From Capitulum mitella (Eukaryota > Arthropoda > Thecostraca > Pollicipedomorpha > Pollicipedidae), in the NCBI GenBank assembly GCA_030062745.1, contig CP099840.1:11050437-11114436 (forward strand): 64,000 bases of DNA, written 5' to 3'. Below the pieces are notes generated by a model. It saw only the letters and a program-made list of their open reading frames with translations. It was not told the origin of the DNA and made no database searches. Shown piece by piece: positions 4,729 to 57,000 of the stretch (the first letter of the stretch is position 1; every line of letters begins with the position of its first letter). Both the position numbers and the translations under genes were made by a program.

Positions 4729-5029
4729 GTTTCTCTCCCTCTTCCTTGTCGTAAGTCTTAAGCACGGATATCAATCAGTTAAGTCATATGCACTCACCGT
4801 GGACGTCAGTCCAGTCGGTAACCCACCGGTGTAAAATTCATAGTCCGCGCAACAAGCTGTAATCAGCGCTGGCTGTGATCCCTAACATCACCAAATTGCA
4901 AACTGGTGATGAGCAAATTGCCTGGGTTAAGTTCCAAGAAAAAAAGACAGAAATTATTCGGCTCCGTGTACGTGTGTCTACCGCTTAGACTCGGCAGCTT
5001 TCTCAACTGAATGTCGACTTCTGCTTCAG
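2743..5029. other. Upstream region of the lectin-repeat gene; GC-rich block at about 3,980-4,420
   Basis: No supported exon. A block around 3,980-4,420 is strongly GC- and CpG-rich and open in several frames on both strands, which is expected from composition alone; it could be a promoter-proximal island for the gene whose main exon starts at 5030. A CT microsatellite lies at 4690-4730. The first coding exon of that gene (start codon and first part of the signal peptide) should lie here or further upstream, but I could not identify it. Confidence 0.4.
4690..4730. repeat. (CT)n microsatellite
   Basis: An imperfect CT dinucleotide run with two CTGT interruptions, followed by further pyrimidine-rich sequence. 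Confidence 0.9.
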
Positions 5030-8000: not shown

Positions 8001-8708
8001 GATCCTCAACTGTCGCAGTGTAAACCACCGCCAGACCCGTGCGAAGGATTCGTACCGTGCTCCGATGATTTCAATTGCCTTATCACGCAGCACTGCGCTC
8101 TGTCGCCGTCGCGCCCGGAATGCGGCAATGAATGCGTGCCTGACTTGCCAAAAAACTCCCCGTGCGACCGTAACGACAAGTGTCTCTCCAACTACTGCGA
8201 ACCCAACACGCGCAAGTGTCGGCCGTTCGAGGAGCAGCCCAAGCCGGAGCCGTGCTGCGTGTTCGGCTTCACGCGGCTCGGCGACTTCTGCTACGAGGCG
8301 CAGAAGACCACGGCCGACTTCAACGCGGCGCGCACCTTCTGCCAGACGCAGTTCCTCGGCGACCTGAGTCCGGTCACCGACGCCGAGGTCAACGGCCTGG
8401 TGTCCAGCCTGCTGACCGACGCCGGCCTGGCGTCCGCGTGGATCGGCGTCAGCGATCAGGGGGCCGAGGGCGTCTTCCAGACGGTGGACGGCACCCCGGT
8501 GACGACGTTCCAGCCGTGGGCGCCGCTGGCGCCGCACGGCTCCACGGCTCGCAACTGCGTGGCCATGGCCGGCGACGGCTATGTGGAAGGCATCACCAGC
8601 ATCACGGCCGGCTCCTGGAACGACGAGGCTTGCTCGCTGCAGAGGCCGTTCGTGTGTCGCGGCCCGCTGCTGCCCGTCTGCAACAAGCCGGCAACAACAA
8701 GCCTCTGA
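5030..8708 (+). CDS. Secreted YGPPK / ten-cysteine-module / C-type lectin protein, main exon (frame broken once)
   Basis: An acceptor (cttctgcttcag) ends at 5029 and the frame continues TLLITAAAVQGQ, which looks like the second half of a signal peptide, so a short first exon is missing upstream. Next come Tyr-Pro-Lys heptads of the TTYGPPK type (about 5170-5345) and a His/Gly-rich linker. Then follow 14 modules of about 66 residues with ten cysteines each: a diverged first (about 5459), twelve near-identical (5657-8033) and a diverged last (from 8034). A C-type lectin-like domain runs from about 8243 to 8690 (WIGV, WNDEAC, FVC); the Ca-site EPN/QPD position reads QPW, so sugar binding is doubtful. 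The stop is at 8706-8708. One extra base at 6145/6146 shifts the frame inside module 4; without it the exon encodes about 1,225 residues. Role unknown; an extracellular matrix, cuticle or adhesive protein is plausible. Confidence 0.8.
5164..5350 (+). repeat. YGPPK heptad-coding tandem repeat
   Basis: A 21-base unit encoding T-T-Y-G-P-P-K (variants S-T-Y and T-S-Y) is repeated about seven to eight times in frame in the 5' part of the lectin-repeat gene. Regular Tyr/Pro/Lys repeats occur in cuticular and adhesive proteins, where Tyr can be crosslinked or hydroxylated; that role is inference here. Confidence 0.9.
5657..8033 (+). repeat. 198-bp tandem coding repeat, 12 near-identical units
   Basis: Unit starts fall at 5657, 5855, 6053, 6252, 6450, 6648, 6846, 7044, 7242, 7440, 7638 and 7836. 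The spacing is exactly 198 bases except for one extra base in the third unit. Each unit encodes a 66-residue module with ten cysteines that looks like two related halves (SDCLGSQYC and EQCQSGYC). The units starting at 6252, 6450, 6648 and 6846 read the same including silent sites, a sign of recent unequal exchange or gene conversion. Confidence 0.95.
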
Positions 8709-21523: not shown

Positions 21524-24430
21524 TCACAGTTCGGTCACGTTCGGATGCCGACCTTTTGAACCGTTCATGGGGTTATCGGTGACGGTCGCCGGCGGCGCAG
21601 GCACCAGCGGCGCGATCTCGGCGTACGCGCCCTCCTGCGGCGCGGCCGGCGCCAGCGCCAGCGAGTCACGCGGGTCGGCGTACTCGGACAGCGGCAACAC
21701 CGGCCGAATCTCGGCGTAGATGTGTTCCGGCGCCGGCTCCGGGTCCGGCTCCGGCTCCGGCTCCGGCGCCGGCGCCGGCTTCGGCTCCGGTCCGTACCGG
21801 CCGGCCGGCGCCGAGCGCAGCAAATCCGGCAGTCGTCCGGCCGAGCTCAGGTCCGTCTGGCTGGTGGGTGCCGAGGCGCCGCCGGCGCCGCGCCGGCCCA
21901 GCAGGGAGCCGCAGCCGGCCGCCGGCGCCGGCGGCGGCGAACGGCGGCCGCAAAGCGCGGCGCCCAGCCGGCGCCGGTTCGCCACCAGCACGGCCAGCGC
22001 GGCGGCGGCCACCAGCGCCGCGCCGCCGATCACGCCGTAGAAGACGATGTTCTGGTCGATGCTGACGCCGCTGCCGCCGCCGCCGCCGGCCGGCACGTCC
22101 GGACAGCCGGCCACAGCGTCAGCCAGCGGCTGCGGCGCACCATTGACGCCGCTGCAGAAGCCGGTGCGTTCGACGAGTTCGACGAGGGCACGCTGGGTGT
22201 CGGTGAGCGCGGCCGTCGACTCGCCGGCCACCATCTGGCGGGTCCAGCGGAGCGTCTCGCACGAGCAGCGCTTGTCGAACGTCAGCGAGTCCCAGCTGAC
22301 CCGCGCCGCCTCCAGGTCGGCGTGCACCGCCAGCGACTCGTTCTCGGCCACCCCGACGTGCAGCGAGTGGATGGCGAACGGGCGCATTTCCTTGCGCGCA
22401 CAGTCGGCCAGGTGGAGTGCCGTCAGCGCGCGTCGCCGCAGCCTCTCGACGCGGGTGTTCAGAATAACAGCCGAGTCGCAGACGCTCACACTCAGCGCCC
22501 TTGGCCGCAGATTGCCGATGCTGAGGCGCTTCATGTCCAGCAGGTCGACCTCCAGCTGCAGCGCCTCCTCGTGCAGCGTGGTGACGTTGCAGGCCTCCAG
22601 CACGACGGCCTTGACCTGACCGGAGAGCGCCTCCCGATGCATGTCCCCCACGCGACAGGAGCGCAGAGCCACGCGTGACCAGCCCGGCCCCGCCCGCACA
22701 CAGTGGCTCTCCATCGACTGCAGGCGGCAACCGAGCAACTCCAGGTTGGCGACGGTGCCGCGGAACGTGTCCGGCTGGCAGACGGCCAGGCTGACATTCA
22801 CCAGAGACAGCTGGCCCACAGTGGCGTGGAAGGCGTCCCGCTCGGCCGAGAGCGCGCTGACGTGCTCCAGCAGCACCTGCGGGCCACGCGACGACGACTC
22901 GAAGTGCAGCGCGAGCCGCTCCAGCCGCAGGTGGTCGATGCTGCGCAGGGTGATTTCGGTCTCCTCCGGCCACCGGCCCGACAGCGCGTCCCTATTGAAC
23001 TGCACCTGGCGCACGTGGGCCACGCGCACCATCTGCAGCGCGGACGAGGCGGCCACGCTCAGACCGTCCGACAGCACCTCCAGCGAGTCCACGTCCCGGA
23101 TGGTGATTGCGCGCAGGTCGTGCAACGCGTAGATGGTCTTACTTGCAATGGTAACGATGCTGGCTCCGGTGATTTTCACGTCGTTGACCGTGTTCGGAAT
23201 GTAGTCTGCTCGTAGATTTATCTGCAGCGAAGTACGAGTACAACTAAAGTTCACGAAAATCGGTATCCTTTGCATTCGTTCATCGAATGGCTCTTGAGAG
23301 CACTTAGCGCTTGCCGCCCATTAACAGCAAGTGCTTCAATGGATGGGCCTTGTTGAGCTCGTTAGAATTAATAATTTCATGGTGCGTTGTTCCTGCCATC
23401 GCGCAGCGGCCGGCAGAATTCGACGGCACGTAATGCTGCGCAGAATGACTGTCCAGTGGCAGGAAAAAGTGAACATTTTTATTGGCCCAAAAGGTGCACT
23501 GTCCCGGACATATGCGCGCGACAAAAATGTGCATAACCGGAATGTGTGTCATTACTGCTTCATTCACCCCGTTTTCCTGAACAGTTTCGAGAAGCCTGTG
23601 TCGGTGAAACGCTGGGCTAACCACGGAAAACTGGGAAATTGACATATTGCTGTTCTGATTCGATGCAGGCCTCCACAACACAGCCCAAATGCCGTGCTGA
23701 GGTCGCCACGAAGGCCAGGATGTCATAAAAAAATGTGGCATAGGAGTCTTCCAAACCACAGCTAAAACTGAACCGATTGCGGTGAAGCGCAGTTACTGGA
23801 ATTAGTGCGCTGAGTTGCAGCGCCAAGTGCGTGTTCCGACATGCGCAGTCTCCGTGACGCAAGCCCGGTTCGTCACATGACTCATGCGATAGGCTGATGG
23901 CCATATCAGCGTGCGGATCATCGGATCGCCAGCAGTGGTGTAACAGCACGTAAGGCAGATATGGCGGCTGCCATACGCCAGCTTTGAACAATTTCAACAT
24001 TAACCCAATGGCGTTGCGTGGAAACAACGAACTAATAACGGCTGTTGCCGCACCAGCTCTGAAAGCGCCCCGACATCGGCGATCGCCAGGCTCCGCGCTT
24101 TTCTGCTGCCGCCATGTTTAAGCGAATAACTGCCGAGCGCTGGGACCAGCGGAACTGCACGAAGCGCCGGCCGGCGCCTGGCATTGACACCGGCTCAGCG
24201 GCGGTCCAAGCGACGACCGCGGGCTGTCCCAGAACAAGGACCGGCTCGGCACTCACCTTGTCCGTGTGCGGGCAGTCGCAGCTCATGCTCGTCGCCGCCT
24301 CGCAGCTCGGCGCGAACGCGCAGCAACGGATGTCGCACGCCAGGAACCTCTTCCCGTGGAGGGCCAGGCCCGGGCCCAGCAGCGCGCAGGCGGCCGCTGC
24401 CGCCCACAGCCGTGCTCCGGCCGACGCCAT
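21524..24430 (-). CDS. Single-pass membrane protein, leucine-rich ectodomain, YAEI motifs in the tail
   Basis: Exon 1 is 24430-24257: the start codon, a signal peptide (Ala/Leu-rich core after MASAGARLW), then a Cys cluster (CDIRCC, CDCPHTDK) like an N-terminal LRR cap, and a donor AAG|GTGAGT. The large exon ends with the stop at 21524; the phase-compatible acceptor I prefer is just before 23302 (gcgctaag), but a small extra exon in the 24256-23303 gap cannot be excluded. The ectodomain has irregular leucine-rich repeats, a C-terminal Cys cap (CSCETLRW...FCSG...AGC), a Gly-rich stalk, a transmembrane segment (VFYGVIGGAALVAAAALAVL, about 22,000-22,050) and an Arg-rich stop-transfer. The tail is Pro/Glu-rich with IYAEI and AYAEI. 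About 650 residues. No specific orthologue is recognised. Confidence 0.75.
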
Positions 24431-25605: not shown

Positions 25606-26748
25606 CTAGCCGCTGCTCCTGTTCGGTCTCAGCTGGCGGCAGGCGGCGCTCACGCACGGCGGCGGCGGGGGGGGGGGGCAGGCGGCGCTCCCGCACGGCG
25701 GCGGGGGGGGGCAGGCGGCGCTCCTGCACGGCGGCGGGGGGGGGGGCAGGCGGCGGCCATCAGACGCGGCCGGCGGAGGGTCTACCGGGCCGGCCGTCGC
25801 TCCCGTCGGCTGAAGGTTGCCCGACAGCGGCCGGCACAGCTCGCCAGCGGCCACCGCCAGGCACTGCGCCATATTATCGCGCACGTGCACCAGCCGCCAG
25901 TGCTTGAGCAGCAGCGCGTGCTCCAGCGTGAACGGGCCGTGACGCAGGCAGCGCGCGCGCACCGTGGTGGCCGCCGAGCGCAGCATTCGGCCGAGATCCT
26001 GCATCAGCGTCAGCAAGTACTGTTCGGACTCGTTCACGGCGTGCACCTCCAGCGTGAAGAAGGGCGGCGCGAACTGGACGCAGCGCAGGCCGTACACCAC
26101 GGGCGGCGAGCCGGGCTCGGGCCGCGGCGGGCCGCGCGCCGCCAGCTCGTACGCCGCCTGCGAGTTGGCCGGCAGGCCGGAGCGCTCCATCATGTGCCGC
26201 TGGTGGGCCGCCTGCAGGCTGCTCAGCACGGCCTCCAGTCGGCCGCGGCTCACGTGGCCGTACGTGGCGCGGTCCGTGGCGCGGCCGTCCGAGAACAGCG
26301 TGTCCGTGGCCAGGCCGAGCCGGCCGGTCAGCTGGTGGACGCGCAGCTGGCGGCCGACGGCGCGCAGGCTCGGCACGGCGCGCGTGCCGGCGTTCAGGCC
26401 GAGCACCAGCGGGCCGGACGTGCGCCAGCCGAGCGAAGCCAGCGGCGTCAGACGCACGTCCACGTCCTCGAACGCGGGGCCGGTGACCAGGCGCCGGCTG
26501 AGCCGCTGCTCTGGCGCCGTCTCGGTCAGCGCGGACGGCGCCGAGACGGCCGCGGCCGCCGACCACCCGCCGGCTGGCAGCAGCGGTCGCGGCGACTGCG
26601 CCTCGTCGATGGCGTTCAGGTCGGCGACCAGCTTGTGCCGCAGCACCCTCAGGCACTTGTTCACGGAGTAGCACGACGGCTTGTACACACAGATGAGTCC
26701 ATTCAGCTGCTTCCATACGACTCCTGCAGCACTCTGCTTCGCATTCAT
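25606..26748 (-). CDS. TRUB2: Mitochondrial pseudouridine synthase TRUB2 homologue, catalytic Asp replaced
   Basis: Intronless frame of 380 residues. Conserved TRUB2 features occur in order: GLICVYKPS (7-25), RRLVTGPAF (about 85-93), the degenerate TruB catalytic loop (103-119, ending GPLVLGL), GRLGLATDTLFSDGR, TYGHVSRGRLEAVL, SSLQAAHQRHMM, ELAARGPPRP, GLRCVQFAPPFFTLEV and HGPFTLEHALLLKHW. TRUB2 acts with other factors on mitochondrial 16S rRNA and mRNAs. At the position aligning with the catalytic Asp (L-D-x-x-A-S-G in other animals) this protein has Gly107 (codon GGC). After residue about 316 the tail is a Pro-rich low-complexity repeat, so the true C-terminus is uncertain. A pyrimidine-rich acceptor-like sequence just upstream of the ATG suggests a non-coding first exon further 5'. 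Confidence 0.88.
   Translation of the reverse strand: MNAKQSAAGVVWKQLNGLICVYKPSCYSVNKCLRVLRHKLVADLNAIDEAQSPRPLLPAGGWSAAAAVSAPSALTETAPEQRLSRRLVTGPAFEDVDVRLTPLASLGWRTSGPLVLGLNAGTRAVPSLRAVGRQLRVHQLTGRLGLATDTLFSDGRATDRATYGHVSRGRLEAVLSSLQAAHQRHMMERSGLPANSQAAYELAARGPPRPEPGSPPVVYGLRCVQFAPPFFTLEVHAVNESEQYLLTLMQDLGRMLRSAATTVRARCLRHGPFTLEHALLLKHWRLVHVRDNMAQCLAVAAGELCRPLSGNLQPTGATAGPVDPPPAASDGRRLPPPPPPCRSAACPPPPPCGSAACPPPPPPPCVSAACRQLRPNRSSG
25648..25775. repeat. GC-rich minisatellite with G-runs in the TRUB2 3' coding end
   Basis: Three to four copies of a unit containing CAGGCGGCGCTC, CACGGCGGC and a run of 7-11 G. On the minus strand it encodes Pro-runs alternating with S-A-A-C. Length errors in the G-runs would change the TRUB2 C-terminal frame. 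Confidence 0.85.
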
Positions 26749-27077
26749 CTTGAAGATTTTAAGCTGAGTTTACCTACAAAAAAGTTGTGGTTCTGAGCCA
26801 AACTGACGATCTGTGCATTCAAAGCATAGCCATGGTGATGCTGATATCTCTGTTACCATAATTTTGAGCTTGTAATAACACTGCACATGTCTACTATCTA
26901 CCCACGAACCATAGGACACTGGGTGCTCTGCAAGCCATGCAACAAACAAGGGAAGGTAGCATTCATCAATGATGTTACATCAACAGGTTACAATTAAGGG
27001 ATAATGGCAAAGCTTAGAGGAGTCTGTGGAGGGATAGAAATGCAGAAACATATGTTAAATGATGTATGGATGACCAT

Positions 27078-31218: not shown

Positions 31219-33948
31219 TTATCTGGGTCTGCTGTCCATGCCCCTGCCGTCCCGCCTGCCGATACGCATGGGCCTTTTCGGCCTTTTCCATGGAGAAGCT
31301 TTGCTGTTGCCGATCGGGGCACGGTAGCCGCCCTGTGGGCTCTGGGAGCGGTCGCGGGGCGAACGATAGTCCTCTTTCGGCGTCTGATAACCGTCCGGCG
31401 GTTCCGGACGGTCAGTACGCGCGGCTCGCGAGCCGCCCATGAACGACGCCCGCCAGCCGGCGAAGGAGGCGCGCAGTCCGCCGAACGAGGCGCGCAGGCC
31501 GTGACTGCCGCGCGCCCCGCCGGCAGGGCCGGCGGCGCCGCGAATCGGCGGCAGCCGCAGCGTCGGCAGCCGCGGCCGGCCGAACGGCGCCGCCGGCGAC
31601 TCGCTGCCGGACCCCTCCGACGAGCGGTCCTTGTCCGGCGGCTCGACGATGACCGGCGCCGGAGCCGGCCGCAGCGCCGGTCCCGGTTCCAGCGCCGGCC
31701 CCGGTCCAAGCGCTGGCCCTGGACCCAGCGCTGGCCCCGGACCCAGCGTACCCTCCGACGTGTCGCTGATACGGGTCATGCTGGAATCGCTGGGGTTCAT
31801 GTCCACGATGCTGTGGCCCATGCATAGCGCACGCACCAACATCCAGCAAATGTAGCCGAGCACGAGACCGGCCAGGAAGGACAGGGTGGCGGTGACGATG
31901 GTGAACTCCCGGGTCATCACCTCCTGGCCCGTGTCGCCCAAGTCCTCGTGCTCGATGCAGGCCGGAACTTCCACGAACGTGACGTTGATTATGATCTCGG
32001 ATATTTGCAGGAACACTTCCGGACGTGGCACGCGCATCATCATGTAGCCGATCGTCTCGTTGATGCTCGTGCGAGACATGAAGTACAGCGACTCGTCGTT
32101 GAAGAAGTAGTCCAAGCAGTAGGTTCGCCAGCCTCGTCGCGACTGTTTCAGCATGATAGTGAAATACAGCTCGCACCAGTTATCGTTCTGGAAAAACAAA
32201 CAGACTAAGAGGGCAGCAGAACATTTTCCTTGCTGCTCATGCGTTTTTGGCACGTGTGACGACGAAATTATGGGAAGCCGTTCGTGGCAGTGCATACCGA
32301 ACCGCATTCTGGCAGAATCGTTCGCAAGAGACCAGCATCGCGGCGGGGGAGAGCAGATGGCTGGGCCGTACGGTCGGGCGGCGCGCAACGTACCTTCAGG
32401 TCCGGGTTGTCGGTGGTGCGCAGCGGGGCTAGCGAGCTGGTATTCACGTGAATTATCGGCCGCATACAGCCCGGCGGTATCACGGTGAAATCGCACGCGT
32501 AAAACGCGTGGCCGCTTTTGAAGAGGCCGATCTCGGCCAGCGAGAACAGCGTCTGGCTGCGGACCACCGTCGAACAGCTGGAGCCCAAGACGTCCTCGCT
32601 GACGGGTGCCCGCAGCTTGCTGCACGTGGGGCCCCGGTAATGTGGCGGGCACACGCAGCGGCAGTGCTTGTTCAGAAAGCCGCCGTGGCGACAGTGTTTC
32701 GGCTTGCGGCAGGTCACGAGCTCGTGGCAGCCGTACACCTCGTTTAGCGTCCGCTGGTCGTAGAATGAGAGACCGAAGTCGCGATGCAGCTTGTAGTCCA
32801 CGATCCACTGGTGTCTGCAGGTAAGACAGGGTTCTGCTTGGGTGGCTCGCTGTTACAACAAGATAAAGACGCAGCTGACTGGGACAATGAGTGAACATCC
32901 AGGATTTCAGTGAATTACCAAGAAAGCATCGTCGCTAATAACGTTATTTTTCTGTTTTGGTGGCGATCATGCTGGGCATATATCAGCCGAAAATTGGCAG
33001 ATAAAAGAGCAAAGCTGACAAAGAACAAGTTTAAACAAAAGAACGAGTTTACATATTGCGCTCGTTTGTCAACTGTAAGAGGTACTGTTCCAACATCACA
33101 CGTATCCGTGCCAGCAAAAATAACTGTTCATATATTCACAACGGCGGTGTGCGGACAAAACGCACCTGACGTTACCTGATATTGAGGACATTCACCACCA
33201 TGCCGGCCTCGAGCGACAGTAGACCAGCGGCGGCGCCGTGTCGGAACGGCGACGCCACCGTGTCGAAATGCGAGACTGAGTACAGGTCGTACGGCGCATG
33301 GCTGCCGAAGTCTTCACACACGCGCGTCTGGCTCTCGGCGAACAGCAGTCGGTCAGTGCCGGCTGCCGGCAGCACCACACGCACCATCTCGTCGCGGTCG
33401 CGGCGCTGGTGCTGGTGCAGCATGCCCAGCGTCTTGACCACGCTCTGCAGTCCCTCGTGGTACGGGCAGCTGTGTGTCGGCACGTGCAGAACCTGAGCGG
33501 CTGAGTCGTAGTCGGGCCCCGATCGGCAGCCGGTCTCGTCACTGTAGCAGGCGTCGCCGTCCTCGGCCGCCGACACACACACCGTCGGCTGCTCCACGTC
33601 CACGTAGCAGTCGATTTCCGGTTTGAGTTGCTCGAACGTGATGCAGGTGTAATACTCCACATGCCTGAATATTGCCTGAAGGAAAGTGATGTTTGTGCGC
33701 CGGCCTTCCGGTCCGGCCAGAAAGTACCGAATGACAGGTCCCTTGCCCGGCGTTCTGGCCCACAGTGCTGACATCAGCATACCGCCAGTGTTCTGGATCG
33801 GCAACCCTTCAGGAGTCATCTCAACCCGGTCACTGATTTGGTGGTGCTGTCGCTGCTCTGCACCGGCAAGAAAATTACTGACAAAAATGCCGACTACGAA
33901 AATAATCGTGGAAACACGTGGGAAGCTGATGCCACAGTCTGCAGACAT
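31219..33948 (-). CDS. Membrane-anchored astacin-like pseudoprotease (astacin-EGF-CUB-like-TM)
   Basis: Exons 33948-33176, 32814-32394 and 32187-31219 join in phase (2, then 0) to a 720-residue protein. Residues 1-30 form a signal peptide. Residues 55-285 match astacin: NITFLQAIFRHVEYYTCITF, HQRRDRDEMV, APYDLYSVSHF, and the closing NHQWIVDY-like and LNEVYGC segments. The zinc site HExxHxxGxxH reads Q168 S V V K172 T L G M L H178, so two of three His ligands and the catalytic Glu are absent. The Met-turn SxMHY reads SVSHF, without Met or Tyr. Next are an EGF module (about 288-325: CRHGG, CRCVCPPHYRGPTC), a CUB-like region of about 160 residues, a transmembrane helix (about 493-515) and a tail of about 205 residues with GPGPAL repeats and Ser/Arg/Pro-rich sequence. 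It is probably a catalytically dead receptor or binding protein at the cell surface. Confidence 0.85.
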
Positions 33949-37843: not shown

Positions 37844-40800
37844 TCATTGTAAGGAAAGCGGTAACTCATTTCCCCCCACCACCGACGCGCCGACGAGACC
37901 GGAGCGCCTCAAGAGAGGAGGGGTGAGTGATCGGCGACGCATCCGGCGCAGCAGGCGGACAATGTCGTCAGTTGGCTTGAGCGGGGGGGGGGGGGGGCGC
38001 CGCACCTTGCGCAGCAGACGGATGATGTCGTCCGTCTGGCCGGAGCCGGCCAGTCGCAGCACGTCGTAGGGCAGCTCGGCGTCGGCGAACGGCGGCCGCT
38101 GGATGCCCTCGGCGTCGGCGATGTGCTGGAAGACGGGCAGCGCGCCGCCGGCGGCCGAGCAGGCGGCGCACAGCGGCGCCGACGCCGGCGGCGCCTCCTC
38201 GCACCTGGCGGCAGCCGCCGACGGTCGGACGGCGCAACCAGCCAGGGATTGCCGCGGGCCGGCGGACAACAGCAGCGAGGGCGGCGGCCCGACCACAACA
38301 AAGGACAGCGATACAGGCTACGCTACGGAGAGAGAGGAACCATTTCCAACACGTCTTATGGTCATCCGAGATCGGGGTGGTCTGTGAAAACTAATAAAGC
38401 ACTACGATAATTCATAACCAGCAAAATGCGCTGTAACGCAATAAAATATCCAAAACCGTAAACGGCGGAGGAACGACGCGTCTGGAAAAAAAACACAAAT
38501 CAAAAAAACGCAGAAAAAATAAAAGAATTCGTCTAAACAGAGCACGAGAAACGCAAATGCCATACATTGGGTCACACCCACAACATCCTGCTCCGTCGGC
38601 CTAGCCGCCGCTAATCCGAGCGGCCGTTCGACCTGACACGTCAGGAGAGAAGGACCCGGTCGCGTGCGCGGACCTGAGGCAGTGCTCGCCGCGCAGCTGA
38701 GGCCAGGTGAACAGCGCCGGGTCGGAGGGAGGCGACAGCGGGCTGAAGTCCATCAGACGCACTCGGTCCTTCGTCGGCCGGTACACGTCGAAAATGTCTG
38801 AAGCGGAGCCGGGACGACTGGTCTGTGCTAAATAGCGCACGGCACACGAATGCTTCGCGGTCGAAAGATATAAAACAATACCACGGGTGTCAACACTATC
38901 AACACTTTTGGTAAAATGCGTTTTTGTCCCCCCCAGTTTTGGTCGGGAAGTGAACTTTTTTGCAATTCCACGCTGAAAAATAAAATTTTGGGTCAGACTG
39001 TCCCTCAAGATTTTGACACCCCTCCCCCGATTTCTGGGACGCGGCTACATCCATGATCAATATGAACAACATTGAAAGGTTGGGTCGTTATTTTCTTTTG
39101 TAAATGCCTAAGCACACCATGTAGGGAAGAGGGAGACGATGTGGTCCACGTCATAATACAAACCACTTCGTCAAACAGCACTGGCCGATTACATTCACTA
39201 TGGCACATGTGCAGCGACAAACTCCGCTGTTCAGACACCAGACGAATGGGGACGACTGCATGCTCAGTCAGGAGAACAAATGTCCCACATTCCATGGAGA
39301 AAACGCTTAAACGCCGACCGGACTCCATTCCATGCATCAGGTAATGGCTGACAACATAAAGCACTTACAGTTTTGAAGAGGAAAAATGTCTTGGATCTTC
39401 TCCTTGAAAAAGCTGGTGATATCTGTGACAATGCTTGTAGCATCTTGTGCCAAATGTGGAAAATACTGACTGATCTCCCGCTGTGATATGGCTGGAACGC
39501 AAGCACACCAATCAAATTTTGACATGTCTTTCAGTAAATGCCATACTTTTGACTGACGGGGAGCCAGAGAACCTGGCGGGCAAACTCGTAAGAAACATTA
39601 CTACACGAAACTGTACAAGACAGAATGTGAAATTTTACATTCTTTGATGCAATACTGCGACCGGACAACGCTAATTCGGTTATAGAGTCCCTAGACAATA
39701 CAATACCCTAGCCGACAGCTATCACCAATTGCCCACAAACGAGTTTCACGAGTGGTCTTAGAAAGCATCTTGCGGACAAGCGTTGAATATTCTGAATGTG
39801 TCTGAATGTGATACCTTAGGTCTTTTACCTTTCGTTTTGCAGCTCCACTTTCATCCTCCATCTGTACTCATTTCATCTTAATGTTGTGATACTTTGTTCT
39901 GTGTGTTTCGCACTTCCACTGACATCACTACTGACGCAGGATCATTTTAGCCTCGTGTTTTTTTCCTCTTTTACGTGCATGGTGCCAAGGAAATACATGA
40001 CGATATTTCGCATACGGAATTAAGGCCAGCGTACCATATCGGTAACGTGGTAAAAGTGCATGCTTCCGTTATTGCAAAAACGCAGCAGATTGCCAGTAAC
40101 GTTCGACATGTCCCCAACGTTGGAAAAAGACAGCATCCCTCTCAGAGTCGTCTGTTCTCAGCATTTCAACATCAACCGGAATCAGTTTTGCCAGCGACTC
40201 TCCAGAGCTGGCCGGCTTCAGTCCAGGGCCGCGCGCAGGAGCACTCACCGACCAGGTGCCGCCGTTTGACGAAGCACCTGAACTCCGCGGCCGGGCTGAC
40301 GTCCACCCAGCGGCGCAACACCACCTGCGGCGTCACCGAGGCGCCCTCCGCTCCCACGCAGCCCTGCAGCACGGTGGGGGAGGGATTTTTGTTTCCCTGT
40401 GTCTAACCCAGGCACAACAGTCCAGCCACGGACGATGCAGGGCTGAAAATCATTCACGGGCTGATACACTCTCAATCGGTCGACGCACCAACGCGAGCGC
40501 GTTCCAGCGTCTTCTTGCCGCCGACGTGCGGAAGAGACAGCGGAACAATACAGCTCAAAGGGAGAGGACACAGACAAGGCGACGTCGGTACCAGCGGCAC
40601 AAGATCGGGAATATGCCATCAAAATGCAAGATGGAAAAGGAGATGAGCTTGATACAAGACGACATCAGGTCTAAATTTCGGTCTACGTAGCAAGCTTGCC
40701 GTCGACAATGCCTGCCTTCCCCCCACTGCGTCCTGCTGACCATAAAAAACTGCACACCAGAACAGGTCTCGCCCGTCCCGAGCGGCACCTCAGTCCGGCA

Positions 40801-43800
40801 GCGGCGCACGGACCTCGAACGGGTGGCAGAGGTCGTGCTGCAGCCGGTCGGAGCTGCGCAGCAGCAGGTGCACGTCGTCCGCCGTCTGGGTGCGGAGCGC
40901 GCGGCCCAGCGACAGCCAGCGCACGTCCACCGGCGCGCTCCAGTTCAGCTTGATGAACGCTGAGCCGCCCAGGGCCGCCACGGCCGCGCGCAGCTCACCG
41001 TCGAACGCGGCGAACTCTGGCCGCTGCCGACGACGTCACGGCACGGGTCAGGCGTTGGCGGAGGCAACGTTGGGCGTAGGTCAGGAGCCGGCGGAGGTCG
41101 CCGTCGGCACAGGGCCGAAGTACGGCTGATGATCGCACGTGTCGGCAATACGGGCTAGCAACATCCATGCCTGTTCACAGATCTAGAGCTGAGGCGTCCG
41201 ACAACCGCACCTCACTGATTAGGACACAACATCAACTTCAGACAAGTCCAGCAGTGGTGGGATTAAAACGCTCAGCAGGCCACATGGCCAGTCGGCTTGC
41301 CTGCAGTTCGGCCGCTCCCTCCTCGGCTGCCTTCCAGTCCACAGAGTCATCGTCGTCGCTATCGGTCTGCGGGTCGGCCCGCGCCGCCTCGTCGGAGACG
41401 ACGGTGCCGCCACTGCGCACGTACTCGGCCACCTCGTCCGGCAGTGGTAGCCACACACTGGTGACAAGTGCCACAGATGTCAGAGGTGGCAACATAAGTG
41501 ACTGACATGGGTGGCAGTGCCCTGCTGTCATTATCTGCATGCAGCCTTTTAACTTAAACAAAAACAATCAGGCTTTAACGAAAAAATTTTGGTTCTGTAT
41601 ATCAAAAGATGTTTCAGAATGAGCTGTAAGGATTTTAACTACTCCCTCATTCTCATTTATCTATCAAGCTTCCAGGCATATGGTTCTTTCTGAGCTTTAA
41701 GACACAATGTGCATAAAATGCACAAAAACAATGCTACCACCATTTTCCATCAAAGTTATTTGATACACATAACAATGGCTTTCCAACACAGATCCATTTT
41801 TCCAGTTCCAAAATCTTGATAAGACTCTTAGAATTTAATGATCTTGAAATGCATACCAAGATAACCTGCTAAAAAATAATGAATGAAACAACACTACAAG
41901 GAGAATAATGGGTATCATTATTGCAGAGTTGTCTATTTACTTTTCTCATTCATGATAAAATGCATGATATGATTACTGCCAAAACATAAGGTTCTTTGCA
42001 CTGCTCAACTACGCACATTGTCAGACATAAATCCTGTCTGGAACACATGTCAGGTTTCAACAAAATCTTGCTGGACACAGCTGTGGCAAGAAGCCAGGTT
42101 TGGGTAGCTTTTAAGGCCCTTGTGGCAAGATTTTGACAGGCAAACCACCTCAGCAAGCAGATTGGTAAATCCAATGATTCAACATGATTATGTAAAACAG
42201 GCAAAGATCGAGGGGGGGGGGCAATGGAGATGATTGCTCACTTCCAGTCCTGAGAAGGGAACTCATGACAGGGGTATAAGGGGGCCCTTCTTGGACTCAA
42301 AAGGGGTCCCGAAGGGGCTTGTGTAAAAATCATAGGGTCGCTGTGAAAACATGACTGGTTCTTGATGCAGTCAGGGGGCCTCTGAGTGGGTTAGATGATC
42401 CCTGAAAAGCATAGAAGGGTCTCTGAAGCTTTCAAAGGGCACATGAGACTACAACAGGACCCAAACATGGCAGATTGCTTCTGAGACTGCCCAAAGGATC
42501 ACAGGGCCCCTGAGACAGCCAAGATGAGGACTGAGTTTCCAGGATGGCATAGGGATCCCAAATGTGTTTCACAGACCTGTGAAACAGTTAAAGGTTCCTG
42601 ATGCAGTCAGAGGGCCTCTGGGAGGTTTAATGAGACCCTGAGGTGGCAAGATTTCCCCTAACATGGATAGGCTGACCCCTGAAATTCTCCAAGAGTCCCT
42701 GGGACCACAAGAGGGGCCCTAAAATGGCAAAGGATGCACAAGACTGCTAAAAGTGTCAGAGAGGTCCCAGATATTGCACAAACTTAAGAGGATATTTAGC
42801 AAGGCATAAGGAGGCCCTGGACAGCCAGAGGGATCCCTTGGACTGGATTTATCACTGACCTCCCCAACCTTGAGAGGGGCTCCAAACTGGGGGCCATGGC
42901 AGGGTCTGGTGGGCCCTGAGACAGCAAGATGGCCCTACATGCCAATGGCCCTATATGGCCCTACATGGGTCCTAAAATCTGCCAGAAGGCCTTTTGTGAC
43001 TGCCAGAGGGCCCCTGAGATGGCAAAAATGCTCCCCAGAGATAACAAGAGGGGGACTGAGGGCAACAGGGGGTCCAATGAAGCTGCTAGAAAGGGACACA
43101 TGTAACTATTAACTAGCAGTCTCTAGCAAGAGGTCCCTGAGATGAGTGGAGGGGTTCCTGAAACTACTAAACCTTGGGATGTCCAGACAGCTCCTGAAGT
43201 GACCAAAGGACCTGAGCATTGCCAGGGACACCTCTATCATGACAGAGAGAAACTTACAGGGGGTCCTTATTACTTCTCAAGGGGCCCCTCAGATGGCAAA
43301 AATCCCCCATGGATGGCAGGAAGGAACTAGAGCTGGCTAAGTATCCCTAAAACTGCCAGGTGGGCCCATGAAACTGCCCAAAGTGCCCCTGGAACTGCCA
43401 AAGGAATGTCTGAGACATTCCAAGAGACACACAAAACTGTAAAAGGGATCCAAGACCACTTGAGGGTGCTGACACTACAGATGGCCTGAGACCACCAACA
43501 ATATAGATTTAAATGCAAGAGGGAACCTTACCTAAGCTGGTAAAAATATATCTATTAACTGCGAGGTGGCAGAGAGGCTCCCAGACAAGACATGGAAACA
43601 AAATTTCAAATTAAGTGAGACTAACTCCATCTAAAATCCTGCCATTGTTGTCATGATTTGGTTGCTTTGTAGGGGAACATAACACAAGGTTTTCCCAAGT
43701 AACATGATTCACTTGAACTTTTCAGTTACTTGGTATAGCAAAAAGCACAAACATACATGCAATTTTCCTCCTTACACCCATGTAGGTCCACATTTTTCAT

Positions 43801-48000: not shown

Positions 48001-51000
48001 ACAAGCTTGCAGTGGAAAATTCCCATGCAGGTTGAATATGTTGAATGTGTTGCATTTATTTCTTCTACAAAACTGTTTTCTTTGAAGAGTCCAGTGTTTG
48101 TTATCCATTTCTCTTCCTGATGTTTGTTTGGTCAATTTATTTTACTTCATCTAGATGCTGAGTATGTGTCATAGGCTAAGCACAAAAATTTAGGATTGCT
48201 CATCACAAGATTTGTTCATAATGGCATAATGGGTTTTGTGGGCAGACTTCTCAAGTTTTCATGTCAGAAAATTATTTTTATTCCACTTTGTCTTCTAAGG
48301 TTTGACTTGTGTGCAACTGCCCTGTGCTCTCATCTACTATGCTGGCAAGAAATCAAGAAGGCCTTTTCTCTCCCAGTTGTTGTGGTCACATACTTAATCT
48401 TGTGTGGTGAGAAAGGTTGCCAATTCATTTGACATTCATTGCAAGTTCTAGGTCCCATAATATTTCAGGGAACAAAGAGAATGAAACATGCTGTGAAATT
48501 CTGCCATAAAATATGTAATGCAGGATGCATTTGTTGCCTTAAATATTGATCCGTGGTCTAGGGTGTCATTATCTCCCAGTATTCTTCATTTTGTCTCATC
48601 CAACTCCTGAATGCCATTGTGACATCATCCCATGCTGTTTTATTAACATAAATATTGCCTCTTTGCCAATTGCCTCTCTTTTGAAGAAATGTATGGTCAT
48701 GCTGTACTGCAGTAGCAGGAGTTAACATTGTCTATACAGTTGTTTTTTGCAACTGTTCATTTTTGGGCAACATGTGAAAAGGGAAGCATGTGCTGTCTTG
48801 GACACTGGACTGCCATTGTAGCACCATCGCTTCTCTCAGCCCTCCGCCATCTGTACTGACTGCAACAACCCACTCTGATTGTGTCATAACCTGTGCAGTC
48901 CACACGGCGACCCGGAGGGACCCTGTTGATGTTGCCCGCCTGCTCCGTCTCTGGCGAGCTCGGCATGTCGGTGCGCTGACCCTGCGTCTCCGCTGGTCCC
49001 AGGCTGCGCGAACTGGCCGAACGGATCAACCGGTACGGCCAGACGTCTCCGGCACCGCTGAGCCAGCTGCGCGTGGCCGTGCGCCAGGCGGCCGTCGGTC
49101 CCAGTCACGTGGCGCTGCTGCTGGAGGACGGCCGCGTCTGTCGGCTGGCCTTCTCCGTCATCACCGAGCGGCTGGACCTCAGCAAACAGGAGACCGGGCT
49201 CAAGGCCCTCTTCAAGGTGGGACGCCCGGAGCGACTGTTGGCCTGTGTCGCCGCTTCGTTCACAAAGTGGTAGGAGTGAACAGTTGACGTCTGCGGTCGT
49301 CAGAAGCATCAAACACTGAACGTGCTTGTTAGCAGTTTCGGGCCGTGACAGTTGTTTGTTCATGTGGAAACTGTAATGTGGAGGCCATGCAAAAAGCAGC
49401 CCAATATCATTAGGACTTCCCATCTGTATGCTGCAGACGATTGAACGTAATACATAAGAACTGAATCGTCCTCAGACACCCATCTCCTACATGGGAAGCG
49501 TCAGCTGTTTTGCTGGACACCACGTAGAACTGTCTTCCAGTGGCCGAGCGCGTCGCGTTGCGTGAGAGGCTATGGGCAGGGTGACAGGCCTGTCCCTGTG
49601 ATGCTCGGCCTGTCGTCCCTGAGCGGCCGCGTCTAAGCTGACACCGACTGGGCCTTGTTCAGGTGTCCTCGGCGCCGACCGGCGGCGGCGCCGGGGCGGC
49701 GGCCGGCGGGGCGGCCGGCGGCGGAGCGGGCGGCGGCGGGGGCGGCGGCGGAGGAGGAGGAGGGAAGCAGACGCAGCGGGCCCGCGGACGTATCCTGCGC
49801 ACGAGCTCCTCCAGCGGCGCCAGAGGTGGGTTTATGGTCCCTCCGATCGGGAGAGACTTTCTGCCGGCTTCTGAGGGCCCGTCCAGCGTTGTTTGTAGTC
49901 CTGACGGGCAAGGCAGGATCTCTTCTCTCGCGCGTGTAACTGTCGTCTTTCTTGCGAAACAGCCCTATTTTTGACGTCTGATTTGTGCCCGTGTGTTGTC
50001 AAAATTGGTGGTGAGTCACAAAAGTCTGGATATATTTGGTCTGGAAGGTACAGGCACGGAATTAGGTGATTGTATGTTCATTAAATATCGCAATTATTCG
50101 TTGTCGACTGGCCATATAGTCGCCATTAGGTCCAGGGACTGTCCGAGGCTCGTGTGGCTGTGCCTCCTGGTCGTCCTGTGGACTGACGCGGACGTGTGGC
50201 CTCGGTCGTCCTCCAGGCCGCGGCACGGGCGTGATCAGCGTGGCCGGCGCGCGCCCGGTCGTGCCGGCCTCGTACGTGCCCGAGGATCTGGTGGCCCAGG
50301 CGCAGATGGTGCTTCAGGGCAAGTCCCGCAACCTCATCATTCGCGAACTGCAGGTCAGGGGAGAGGCCAGACAGCCACGGGCTGAGGAGGGTGGGGGGGG
50401 GGGGCGGCGGAGAGGATCGCCGCGAGGTTCAGTCGGGAGTCTGCGAGTCACGTTGTTTTTGTTTATATATTGGCTTGCAATGCGAGGCTCCTTGGACCCA
50501 CATGGTAACTGAAATTCAGGGATTCGAATGTTGCATACTGTCCTGTGGTGGCATGTCATGGATTCATTCTGGTTATTTGTTTACACTCGTGATCATTGTC
50601 CCAAAATTGAGTTTGTGCCATGGTGTCGCAATGGTAAAAAGAACATCGGAAGGAAAAAGAAAGAGCTCAGTCATGGTCTGCTGTCAAATCTTGTGTTCGA
50701 AGCGTGTAAACCAACAATGCCTTTGAATGCGTTTGATGCTGAAATAATGTTCACCAAAACGTTTTGAATGTATGCGTGTCTGTTGGGTGTAATCAACAGC
50801 ATTTGGGAATGAAAAATTAGTGCTCAAAAGGTGGGGTTAGAGTTGGAAATTTTGTTGTGTGAATGTCACTTTCCACCAAAAACTGGCAATTTTTTGGCAA
50901 TGCTCATAACAATGTGTTCAGTGGATGGTTACAGGATTATCGTTGTCTATTTTTCTTAAGTTTTTGGAAAGTTGCTTCTGTTGCAGCATATGCCATTCCG

Positions 51001-54000
51001 TTACATAAAGGACGATGTTATGCACCAGTTGGTGTATTGTATTTGGTTCGTATGCTTCCAGTTGTAATGGAAACTGTTTGTCATTGTACTTTGTCATCCT
51101 GTCTTACAGAGAACCAATCTAGACGTGAATTTAGCTGTCAACAATCTCCTCTCCCGAGATGATGACGAAGGAGATGACGGCGAGGAGGGCCAGGTATGAT
51201 ACAGTCTTGTGAAGACCGGGAAACCTAGACTGCAAGAGATGCAATAAGTCTCAGAACCTTTGTGTGTGGGTTTTACTGTTGTGCTGCATGGAAAATGCCT
51301 CTTAGACTGGTTTGTTAGCTGTTTCTCAAACGTTTGACAAAAGGCATCGCCTCAGGCGGTTCCTCCCCCGTCTCCCGTCTCAGACCATTAAGGCCGTTTA
51401 ACGGGAGCGCCGGCCGACAGGATTCGTACGTACCGGACGACTTGATGTCGCTGCTGGACGCCGGCATCCACGCCGACCACCCGTCCGTCATCATCGACGC
51501 CGACACCATGTTCAGCGACGACATGTTCGGCTACAGCACGAGCGTGCGCCGCTCGGGCTCGTCGCGCGGCGCGGCGCGCGGCGACCGGGACGAGCGCGAC
51601 ACGGTGTTCCCGTACAGGGAGCGACGGTCCGGCGGCGCCGCGCCGCCCAACCCCTCCCGCCGCTGGATGATCGAGAACGCTCTGCGCGACACGCTCTTGG
51701 AGAAGGACCTGGACGGTGGGTGTGCGGGCGACGGAGGAGGCCGTCGTGAAGCAGACGGGATAGCGTGGAGGAAGGAGGGTGGTGGGGAGTGGTCCCATCG
51801 GTTCTTCCGGGGGGGGGGGGGCGGGATGTGGGTTGCTGATGTAATGCTAGGAAATCTGTAAACTTGCTTGGTACTTGCACCCGATGTTTTTTTGTGCGAC
51901 GTTGCCTGTTGTGGACCATGGAGATTTTTTGTGCTGATTTATGTGAATCAGACGTCTGGCCCGTTGACCCGCCGCTCATTGGTTGTTGGCATGACGACTT
52001 GCGACGTTCGTGGTTGGCTGAGTTGGAAAAATTCCTCTGCGCGACCCTGCTCGGACGTATGCTTTCGCGACGCCCTCCCACCGGCGTCAGCGTCACGTGC
52101 CTGTGCTCGGCCGTGCAGGGAAGAAGAAGGAGGCGAGCCAGCCGAGCCCACTCTGGCTGTCTGACGAGCTCGAGTTTCTGCCGTCGTCGGTCAAGTTCGC
52201 GCACATCGCCGCGCTGCACTCGGAGCTGGCGGCCGTTACCGCGAGCGGCCAGCTGTACCAGTGGAAGTGGAACGAGCTCGAGGCCTTCCGACACCCGGAG
52301 GTACGGACAGACTCTGTGGCCGCTGTCCGGCGCCGGACTGTGTTCACAGCCCGTCTGTTCGACCAGAGTAGACGCCTGTCTGTTAACCGTCTTTATGTCT
52401 GTTTGCCGACCCGCTTGTGTGTCTGTCCGTCTGTCGGCGCCGCTGGCTTGATCTTTGGCCGATACTTTGACTTGTTGCTTCAGCGGGCTGCGGCGCCATT
52501 GTCGCGAGAGTCGTTGACTTAACTGGCCGCTGACGAGTCCGATGCACAGTTTTCTCCGCTAATCCGACCCTGCCTGCTCGGCTGCGCGCAGAACCCTGAC
52601 ATCCGCCACCCGAAGGTGTCCTGCCTGGGCCTGCTGAACGAGGCCATCACGCACATCTCGTCCTCGACGGTGCGGGCCTCGGTGGCGACCGAGTCCGGCC
52701 GCGTGGCCACTTGGGTGGACGAGACGATCGGTACGTGGCCGCAGTGGCCCTTCGGACGGGGTTGGCCGGACGCTGCGTCCGCCGCTTGGCCGATGGTGGA
52801 AACGGTCTGCTCTGTCGGATGGTGTTCGGGTCGAAGGTATTTTGATAATTTTCTAGGATGTGTTCGTGTGTGTCGTCGCTGTAAATTTATAGTGTCCCAG
52901 GCAATTGGTTTTGACATGTAGCAAACAGTATCACTGTGGACCCTTGTGGACCGGTATCGACGTTCGCGGTGTTGAGTGACCTGACCTGACCTGAGCAACC
53001 CTCCCCCCAGCGACGGCGGCCACGAAGCTGGAGCACCCGGCGCACGCGTTCTCGGAGCTGGTGGTGGACAGAGTGCGCCAGCTGCAGACCTGCTCACTGT
53101 ACACCTGCGTCCAGCTCGAGTCCGGCACCATGTACTGGTGGTAAGAGCTCGCCCGGACCCCTCGGGCCGACGTCGGCAGCGGCCGCCGGACGGTGGGGCC
53201 TAGTACTGACCGACCGGCAGCGTTGCGCTGGGACGCGTCGGCCGCTGTGTGGCTTGCCGCATGATCTCCTTGCAAATGGTGTGATTTTACGTTCCATGGC
53301 GTGAACTCTTCACTGTTACGTCCGAGAGATTTGCCTCGCTCTGTTTGCTGGCCCATTTTGTTTTTCGGCACCGTCGTCGGCCATGAATCGTTCTCCCCGT
53401 AACGAAACCACTGGCCTCGCCGAGTGTTGTGCGCTGCCATGCTGAGCCGATTCCCGCCAGTTAGCCGTAGCCCTGAGGCAGAGATGCTCGTGTCCACGCC
53501 GTTCTCGCGTGTCCGGCAGGGGCGTGCTGCCCTTCGGCCAGCGGAAGCGGCTCTGGGAGAAGTACCGGCTCAAGTGCAAGCGACAGCGGCCCTCAACCAC
53601 GGCCGGAGAGGTGCAAGTCGGCGCCACCGTCTGCATGCGTAACGCGCCTTTCTACCACGCTGGAGCCGTCGGTACGAGCGGTTTGTGTGTGTGTGGGGGG
53701 GGGGGCGGTAGCGTGACGGTAGGGGCGTGTAGTGGTTTTGTTGAGGCTGACTACGTAGTCTGTGTACTTCTGGGGTCGTGTTCTCCTGGTTGGTATACTT
53801 AGGTGGTTCGTGTACTTGTGGAGTCATATTGTCCTGGTTGGTATACTCAGCGAGGGCATAACGTTATTAAGTTGAGATATTCATCAAAAATTCTAAGCAT
53901 GGCCAGTTTCTTTTACGCCTTGTTTAGGAAATGCATGCGTGATATGGTTTGCGGCACCATTGGTAGCAGCGCCGTACCACAATCGCATCGTTACTTTTCT

Positions 54001-57000
54001 GCCGTACTGGCCTCCTGCTCGCCACATTCTATCGGCGCTGCCGCGTGCCTGGCTCCGTGCTGGTTCGCGCCGCTGCTGACAGTGCTCCGTGGTGAGACTG
54101 CCCTCGTCGCCGGCAGGCTACACCACGCTGGGCGGCGCGCCGCGTGTCGGCCAGCTGCTGCAGGCCGCCTGGAATCTGACGGACGTGTGCCGCTTCAAGA
54201 TCCTGCAGCCGCCTGCTGAGCCCAAGAAGGTGCGTCTGGGACCGGCGCGGTGCGTTGCCGTGGGCCGGTCGTCACCGCGCGTCGCCGATGGGAGCTGGCG
54301 TTCGGGCTGGGTTCAGGCCCAGCTGCGACCGTGTGTTGGCGTGGGGAAGTGGAAAGGGAGTGGTTTCAACCGTCGTCCTTCTCTGGGAAGATCATGACAG
54401 GTCCCGTGGTGGCCGTTCGCCGCTGTGGGGAAAGGGGGCAGGGGATGAGTGATAGGGACTCCGCTGCCCTCTGGGGTGAGGCGGGTTTGGGACCACCGCG
54501 GAATTGCCGCTGGTGTGGGCAGTTACGGTGAAGAGGCAATGGATTCGGGGTTAGGCCGTTGGTATAAGCCGACGTCTGCTGGGTGTTGGCCGCCTGCTGG
54601 TGTGTGTGGGAGAGGGGGCGGGGGAGGGGAGAACAAACCGGTGCACAGCGTCGTGTGCGCGGACTCTCCGGCCAGCTGTTCACGCGTCCCTGGTCTGTCG
54701 TCAGCCGGCACTGAGGGAGGGCCAACTGAAGACCAAGGAGGCGGCCGACAGGAACGACATGCCGCCGCCGCCCAGTCCGGCCAGCTCCACGTGCTCGGAC
54801 GCCAGCGGCTCGGCCTCCACCGGACCTGTGCCCAGTCAGTGGCGGCCGAACGGCCTTTGCATACGGGCATCCCGTTATGTATCTGCTGATTACGCAGTGA
54901 TACGCAGTAATGGGCTCGTGTACGGACAGTGTACAGGCAGTCAAATACGTATTAACGGCAACGTGACTTGTTTTATAGTGTTAATGGTCGTTTGCATAGC
55001 TACAGTTACGCCAGCAGGTAACATGGGAGTGTTTGCCATTCAGACATCAGCCCTGTGTTTGTGGATCAGCCGGACTCCTTGGTAATGTCGTTCATTCATC
55101 AGCCCTGTGTTTGTGGATCAACCGGACTCCTGGGTAATGTCGTTCGGTCATCAGCCCTGTGTTTGTGGATCAGCTGGACTCTTCGGTAATGTCGTTCGGT
55201 CATCAGCCCTGTGTTTGTGGATCAGCCGGGCTCCTTGGTAACGGCCTTGTTTTCCTCCTTTAGAGCGTGCGCGCCGCTCGGCTCCCAAAAACAACGCCGA
55301 GCGCAAGGACGAGGAGGAGTGGAGTCTGGCGGACGTCATCTTCATCGAGGAGAGCAAGAACATCCCCTACGGTAGGCGCGCTGCGGGAGGCGGCATATGT
55401 ACCAGGGCGACCTGTTTACTGTGCATATCGAACGGGCGCAGTTTGGGTGCTGGACAGGAAGGACGTCACATCACAGAGGATGTTGTTCCATCCATGCTTT
55501 TTTATGAAAAAAGAACTGGATGCATTTTGCAATGTTTTCCTGTCGTGGAGTTTTCGGCGGTTTTTACCCTGGCGCTGTGGTGTGCAGGCAAGGTGCTGAA
55601 GATCGACGGGCCGTACGCGGTGGTGTACTTCTGCCAGGGCCGGGAGGCGCCCGCCACAGACGACCCGCTCGTCATGCTGAACGAGTCGCGACTCTGCCGC
55701 AAGGACGAGCTCATGGTGAGAGGCTCGCCGCGGCTGCTGGGACCGTGCCGGGGCCCGCTGCAGACGGGAGACGGGCGGAACACGGTGCTCAGCAACGCGC
55801 TTTAGGGTCCGGGTTGTTGCTCGGATGAAATCATTGGGAAAACTTGAACGACTTGTTTCGGGGACCTCGGCGGTGGAGTTGAAGCGTAGCGAGTCGCTCA
55901 CGAGATCGTTATCGGTTGTTGTCTGTTGGCGGTCGGCGCCGCTGCTGGCGCTGGACTGCGGTCGGCCGCTGAACGTCAGCTGTCGCTCGCCGCCAGGTTA
56001 TCAAGCCGGGCTCGCCGCCGCGTGTGCCCGAGTGTTTCCAGAAGCTGCCCAAGAAGATCGCGCTGCCCAACTCGCTGCAGGTGCTGACGTACGCCGTCGA
56101 CGGCAAGGGTGAGTCGGGCGGCCATGGCTGAGTGTCGCGTCTGCTAGTTACCTGTTTGAGTCCGGGCAGCTGTTCAGAACAGTGGGCTGGCACACTGGTA
56201 TTTTTAACGTAGGCTTCCGTTGATCCTGCTATGTCGCGCAGGATCAACGGAATGGATAACCTGATTTTGTTTGAATGAACGACGGATTGTGGGCTTAAAG
56301 AAAGGTTTTGTTCGTCGCATGTAGCGTGACGTCAGACGTGACCAGAAACGTTTTTGTTGTCCCCTAAACGTTTTTCTCGTTTCGCGCCGTCGTTTTGTTA
56401 ATGGTTGTATTCAGTTGTAGAATGCTGGCAGCAGGCATAAGTCCGTTTGCCCATGCTGTGGTGATTCCGATCGTTCCTTTCGACGTCCCCTGCGTCTTGT
56501 TCGGCTGTCATTGCCCCTTTCTGACTGCGTGACGGCCGCGCCATGCAGGTCTGCACTGTATCGTGGTGAACGGCGGCCGACTCAGCTACAACGTGTACAG
56601 CCTGGTCAGCTCGAAGCCGGACTCGGAGTGCGTGCTGCCGACCGAGGCGGATATCTTCTGCGGACGCCACCCGTCCGCTATCTCTCTCAGGACCACAGGG
56701 GAGGTGAGTGAACCACATGACCGGGTCGCTGACTGCCTGAAGAGCTGCCGTTGTACGGAGGGAGGGCGGCTTTTTAGATAAAGCGTAAATCTGTTTTTAT
56801 GCGGGGCATCAGAAGGAAATGTACGCAGGACAGGAATAGCGATATCCCGCATTTGGAACAGGGCGTCGGCCGACGCGCTTTGGGCCGGCGGTTTTAAAGT
56901 CGCGAGTTGCGAAATGACCAGCACATTCAATTTACGTATATGCCGTTTTGCGTGTTCAGCCAGTAACCTGGTGCCCCTGTTTGGCAGGGAGACCAAGTGA

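Follow-up and report, generated by a model that had tools for sequence, protein, structure and literature searches.

The locus examined here lies on the minus strand of a 64,000-nucleotide stretch of Capitulum mitella DNA (hereafter the window) and raises the question of what becomes of an astacin-like protein that has lost the residues for catalysis. Such a gene could be a relic on its way to decay, or its product could have been retained for a task other than cutting. To address this, we combined gene modelling, domain and structure-database searches, codon statistics, simulated drift and a survey of the open-access literature. At the level of sequence, it is well supported that the gene encodes an intact, membrane-anchored and catalytically dead protein.

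Gene structure and coding signal

The predicted gene comprises three exons:

33176..33948, minus strand: exon 1, 773 bp, aa 1-258, with the start codon, signal peptide, pro-segment and most of the pseudo-astacin domain
32394..32814, minus strand: exon 2, 421 bp, with the C-terminal end of the astacin domain including Cys287, the EGF-like module and the start of the membrane-proximal module
31219..32187, minus strand: exon 3, 969 bp including the stop codon, with the rest of the membrane-proximal module, the transmembrane helix and the cytoplasmic tail

Both introns (361 and 206 bp) are bounded by GT-AG at the predicted splice joins, with a moderate pyrimidine tract at the first acceptor and a strong one at the second. 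The spliced coding sequence spans 2163 bp, a multiple of three, and encodes 720 amino acids plus a stop codon, with no internal stops. An earlier note on this DNA had described three intact, in-phase exons; coordinates, minus strand, phase and exon count all match that description, with the joins being predicted ones.

GC content at codon positions 1/2/3 was 0.64/0.44/0.74 for aa 1-257 (GC3 0.735), 0.56/0.46/0.86 for exon 2 (GC3 0.857) and 0.48/0.37/0.84 for aa 399-520, the portion of exon 3 before the tail (GC3 0.836). The tail itself has a GC3 of 0.81, and position 3 exceeds positions 1 and 2 in every part, giving strong three-base periodicity. The introns have an overall GC of 0.43 and 0.57, and the flanks one of 0.47-0.48. 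Because the tail DNA is 73% GC and long frames arise easily there, we tested it separately, with a codon-usage model built from aa 1-520 and a neighbouring TruB-like frame. In its own frame the tail scored -0.01 per codon; 500 shuffles gave -0.39 +/- 0.07 and reached -0.21 at most. Its five other frames scored -0.195 to -0.40, one antisense frame lying slightly above the shuffle maximum and well below the sense frame. A coding signal is present in every exon and in the tail.

Retention of intron 1 would end translation at the exon border, where the sequence reads AGG TAA (33172-33177, minus strand), and the predicted product would be a truncated soluble form without the EGF-like module, helix and tail.

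Homology to astacin and loss of the catalytic site

The Pfam Astacin profile (PF01400) matches aa 73-287 with an E value of 1.3e-9 and 38.5 bits against a cut-off of 22.5, covering profile positions 7-188 of 189. Searching solved structures by phmmer with the domain only, we found four distinct crayfish astacin sequences (e.g. 1AST) to be closest (E 7.4e-5 to 2e-4), followed by tolloid-like 1 and BMP1 (E about 5e-3 to 6e-3); the whole protein as query retrieved crayfish astacin at E 8e-4 to 2e-3. In NCBIfam, exon 1 gave one weak match to a bacterial zinc protease (19.7 bits against a cut-off of 300), indicating distant kinship only. Judged by these comparisons, the astacin match is real but remote. 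AlphaFold2, run on exon 1 alone without an alignment, returned an unusable fold (mean pLDDT 30.3, pTM 0.20).

The N-terminal segments and the three former catalytic motifs lie as follows:

33859..33948, minus strand: signal peptide, aa 1-30, hydrophobic core about aa 12-28, with AGA before Glu31; cleavage point placed by eye
33757..33858, minus strand: pro-segment-like stretch, aa 31-64
33415..33447, minus strand: former zinc motif, aa 168-178, QSVVKTLGMLH versus HExxHxxGxxH
33391..33414, minus strand: former ExxRxDRD motif, aa 179-186, QHQRRDRD, with RxDRD retained
33265..33279, minus strand: former Met-turn, aa 224-228, SVSHF versus SIMHY

The alignment places QSVVKTLGMLHQHQRRDRD on crayfish astacin HELMHAIGFYHEHTRMDRD, and YSVSHF on YSIMHY. 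Since phmmer aligns the region to HELMHAIGFYH, Q168, S169, K172 and H178 occupy the four motif positions: the first His is replaced by Gln168, the base Glu by Ser169 and the second His by Lys172, and the third His (H178) is kept. In the Met-turn, Met has become Ser and the Tyr ligand Phe. The earlier note had read both sets of changes from the sequence, and the alignment to crayfish astacin bears them out. Two losses go beyond its list, namely the replacement of the family-specific Glu by Gln179 and the complete lack of Lys and Arg in aa 42-64, where the tryptic maturation cut would be expected.

HExxH is absent from the 720-aa spliced protein and from the minus strand of the whole 64-kb window. 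Different exon joins restoring a zinc motif, which the earlier note had considered, thus fall away: with no HExxH on that strand, no alternative join inside the window restores the site. The sole six-frame HExxH in the window, at 9954 on the plus strand, was rejected as lying on the opposite strand and without astacin context. The astacin peptidase hallmarks that we tested (HExxHxxGxxH, SIMHY and the family Glu) are absent from the protein sequence, and with these defining features gone it is an astacin homologue, but no astacin peptidase.

All four conserved astacin cysteines are kept, Cys102, Cys141 and Cys161 by alignment and Cys287 as judged from the end of the profile match; the two conserved disulphides are Cys42-198 and Cys64-84 in crayfish numbering, and the pairs are predicted ones here. 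RxDRD and the motif Gly are also retained. In total, 1 of 7 catalytic or activation positions is kept versus 11 of 12 structural motif positions (Fisher p 0.0017), under classes that follow the roles given in the accessible part of an astacin review (PMC9848320) and were set once the losses had been seen. The sole structural change is Ile to Val. With the astacin scaffold kept and the cutting machinery lost, the protein probably binds rather than cuts.

The position of aa 31-64 suggests that they are the pro-segment, and Asp40 may be the equivalent of the aspartate-switch residue (FEGDI changed to QISDR). In a Limulus enzyme, the accessible text of PMC9629494 places the maturation cut ten residues beyond the switch Asp, next to a basic residue (D38, K48-N49). 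If the stretch is indeed the pro-segment, the lack of Lys and Arg at 42-64 makes trypsin-like removal at the usual place impossible, and the former active-site cleft may stay covered by it.

Domain architecture and membrane topology

Beyond the astacin domain, the protein carries the following features:

32622..32711, minus strand: EGF-like module, aa 293-322, six Cys (293, 299, 309, 311, 313, 322)
32394..32576, minus strand: membrane-proximal six-Cys module, part 1, aa 338-398
31957..32187, minus strand: membrane-proximal module, part 2, aa 399-475, with Cys 403, 422 and 475 and sequons 441 and 466
31834..31902, minus strand: transmembrane helix, about aa 494-516, hydropathy peak aa 493-522
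31222..31833, minus strand: predicted cytoplasmic tail, aa 517-720, rich in Pro, Gly, Arg and Ser (composition over aa 521-720)
31441..31494, minus strand: three RASF repeats in the tail, aa 630-647
31315..31389, minus strand: three YxxP motifs, aa 665-689, containing all tail tyrosines

The EGF_2 profile stayed below the Pfam cut-off (E 0.96 and 0.24), and a netrin-G1 match was weak (E 0.008). The proposal that astacin fold, EGF module and disulphide cysteines are all preserved therefore holds for the cysteines and structural motifs, and the EGF assignment follows from the six-Cys pattern and the weak netrin-G1 match. In related astacin proteins a CUB domain follows the EGF domain, and the six-Cys module at aa 338-475 occupies that place; despite its six cysteines at the CUB position, it gave no Pfam CUB match at E up to 10.

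Kyte-Doolittle hydropathy exceeds 1.6 in two stretches only, aa 5-31 and aa 493-522. The protein has four N-glycosylation sequons (86, 382, 441 and 466), which all lie on the predicted outside. So do 20 of the 23 cysteines, which sit between signal peptide and helix in an even number (8 in the astacin region, 6 in the EGF-like module and 6 in the membrane-proximal module). The predicted topology is a type I layout of signal peptide, ectodomain, one membrane helix and tail. A ladder of small residues spaced small-xxx-small (T497-S501-G505-G509) runs along the helix. Hydropathy (aa 493-522) and composition both agree with the transmembrane helix and long Pro/Ser/Arg-rich tail noted previously.

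The tail has a net charge of +13 and five Ser/Thr-Pro. Three RASF occurred in 0 of 20000 tail shuffles and three YxxP in 81 of 20000; given tail periodicities of 6 and 7 residues, the RASF, Ser/Thr-Pro and YxxP counts are not independent events. These motifs sit in short repeats and may reflect low-complexity drift. YxxP suits Crk-type SH2 domains.

Comparison with known metzincins

The protein resembles astacins (MEROPS M12A, crayfish astacin) in its domain match, four cysteines, RxDRD and motif Gly, but differs from them in the loss of zinc ligands, general base, Met-turn, family Glu and basic maturation site. MEROPS M12A includes non-peptidase homologues. Unlike crayfish astacin, it has gained a membrane anchor and a tail. 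Its order of astacin domain, EGF-like module and Cys-bearing module is shared with invertebrate astacin-EGF-CUB proteins (nematode NAS type, tolloids), which are zinc enzymes and mostly secreted; in contrast to these, no CUB is detectable in it by Pfam, and the transmembrane helix and tail are extra. EGF and CUB domains are both recorded for astacins in the accessible part of PMC9848320. With meprins it shares membrane anchoring and an EGF-like module, but meprins are active enzymes with MAM and TRAF domains, neither of which Pfam detected in the whole protein at E up to 1. The meprin structure match was weak (E 0.29, domain query against solved structures).

By analogy, the nearest precedent is the pseudo-ADAMs. 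Like the present protein, UNC-71, ADAM22 and ADAM23 (M12B) are type I membrane metzincins with a dead zinc motif starting QS, given as QSIGHLLGLEHD, QSLAHNIGIISD and QSLAQNLGIQWE, respectively, in the portion of PMC11266112 available to us. The same portion ascribes to pseudo-ADAMs roles in cell guidance, sperm maturation and synaptic complexes, and has ADAM22 acting through a surface other than its dead site. They belong to a different metzincin subfamily, and ADAM disintegrin and Cys-rich modules were not found here (Pfam, E up to 1). Since the Met-turn is typically retained in pseudo-ADAMs, as stated in that portion (PMC11266112), and lost here, the present site is degraded further.

A tblastn search for paralogues in the 64-kb window recovered the gene itself and eight chance matches (E 3.5 or worse). 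Among viral contigs, exon 1 gave 6 and exon 2 gave 3 pattern matches, and among prokaryotic genome contigs 33 and 14, none of which was confirmed; the scanned collections being viral and prokaryotic, this result is silent on animals.

Among the papers listed in our searches, which covered the open-access literature, we found no described pseudo-astacin. A large 2023 astacin survey admitted only matches with an intact zinc motif, according to its accessible text (PMC9848320), so that pseudo-astacins would have been filtered out. The parts available of three further papers describe eight salmon louse astacins with intact motifs, a scorpion digestion study in which 'catalytically inactive' refers to a chitinase-like lectin, and a caterpillar astacin with an intact motif.

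Proposed mode of action and alternative explanations

We favour, with moderate confidence, a type I membrane protein whose pseudo-astacin ectodomain is non-catalytic and which acts at the cell surface as a receptor or in adhesion, like the pseudo-ADAMs. A binding or decoy role, as the earlier note had put forward, is plausible in general terms. In the proposed mechanism, the pro-segment, uncut for want of a tryptic site, would lie over the dead cleft, so that the protein would bind by other faces of its pseudo-astacin, EGF-like and membrane-proximal modules. The partner would be an extracellular protein or matrix. The helix may dimerise through its small-xxx-small ladder, and the tail would dock cytoplasmic adaptors via its Pro-rich, RASF and YxxP stretches.

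More speculatively, and on balance doubtfully, the protein could represent a lineage-wide family of single-span M12A receptors whose pro-segment stays locked in the cleft and whose docking tail can be phosphorylated. Such a family would have evolved in parallel with the pseudo-ADAM receptors and would share with them even the change of His-Glu to Gln-Ser. Dead metzincin receptors are already well described among ADAMs; if orthologues exist, the present gene would show that a metzincin became a receptor a second time, independently, and would allow a direct test of the role of the metzincin fold in the absence of its metal.

The alternative that survives best, though we hold it to be unlikely, is that the protein is no receptor and pairs with an active membrane astacin in the style of meprin alpha/beta, which it would tether, chaperone or inhibit. 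Its membrane anchor and retained astacin domain would fit this role. In the parts of the sources accessible to us, meprin alpha is anchored at the membrane by meprin beta within covalent heterodimers (PMC10065446), and certain pseudoenzymes regulate active cousins (PMC11266112). However, the MAM and TRAF domains of meprins are missing (Pfam, E up to 1), with an even number of cysteines none is obviously left over to link subunits, such a partner would have no need of the long tail, and the 64-kb window holds no active paralogue.

Still harder to sustain is a decoy that captures substrate or inhibitor peptides in the dead active site, away from active astacins. The sequence around the former site is still recognisable, and some pseudopeptidases bind through theirs, as the available portion of PMC11266112 reports. 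Against this, Lys172 occupies what was the zinc pocket, a decoy could do without a signalling-type tail, and the missing basic maturation site at aa 42-64 probably leaves the cleft covered by the pro-segment, which argues against simple substrate trapping.

That the gene is a recent pseudogene or unexpressed appears improbable. Under simulated neutral substitution, the whole frame stayed free of stops in 287, 45, 3 and 0 of 1000 runs at 0.02, 0.05, 0.1 and 0.2 substitutions/site, and exon 1 alone in 612, 314, 100 and 17 of 1000, with substitutions placed at random and indels ignored, which favours frame survival. Exon 1 survives more often, so the whole frame carries more of the argument than the astacin exon does; few whole-frame copies stay open, which makes a long-neutral relic unlikely. 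The lost catalytic site would agree with decay, and a recent silencing would leave many frames open, as the count at 0.02 substitutions/site illustrates. Drift deep enough for the observed divergence, however, breaks the whole frame; moreover, the loss is site-specific, and the frame, splice sites, signal peptide, cysteines and helix are all intact. The apparent constraint invoked previously is thus backed indirectly, by the breakage of the whole frame under drift and the concentration of losses at catalytic positions.

Catalysis by another route, with other ligands serving a peptidase or some other hydrolase, is very hard to credit. In its favour, H178 is kept, with H180 and other polar residues nearby. 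Against it, only one of the three zinc His is left, and the general base, the family Glu, the Tyr ligand and the Met of the Met-turn have all been substituted.

Other features of the window

At 48980-63375 on the plus strand, serial open frames resemble UBR5/hyd exons; eight pieces tested there gave no Pfam match at E up to 0.01. A D123/CDC123 gene is represented by two pieces at 40175-41035 on the minus strand (PF07065, E 2.1e-21 and 1.4e-9). The TruB-type pseudouridine synthase frame at 25609-26769, also on the minus strand (PF01509, E 4.6e-11), ends in a tandem repeat (33/39 bp) with many Pro codons.

On the plus strand at 5460-8708, a C-type lectin domain (PF00059, E 2.4e-13) lies behind about 12 near-identical Cys-rich, Dickkopf_N-like repeats of 198 bp each (array 5601-8062, 96% matches). 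Near 6.1 kb there is a switch of open frame, between 4931-6151 and 5460-8708; either an indel within the array or a misassembly could account for it.

A second receptor-like gene is found at 21527-23320 on the minus strand, where the sole Pfam match is low-complexity and far below cut-off. Its 598-aa open frame has the top codon score among window frames of at least 45 aa, and contains a membrane span, placed by eye, and a Pro/Glu-rich tail with two YAEI motifs.
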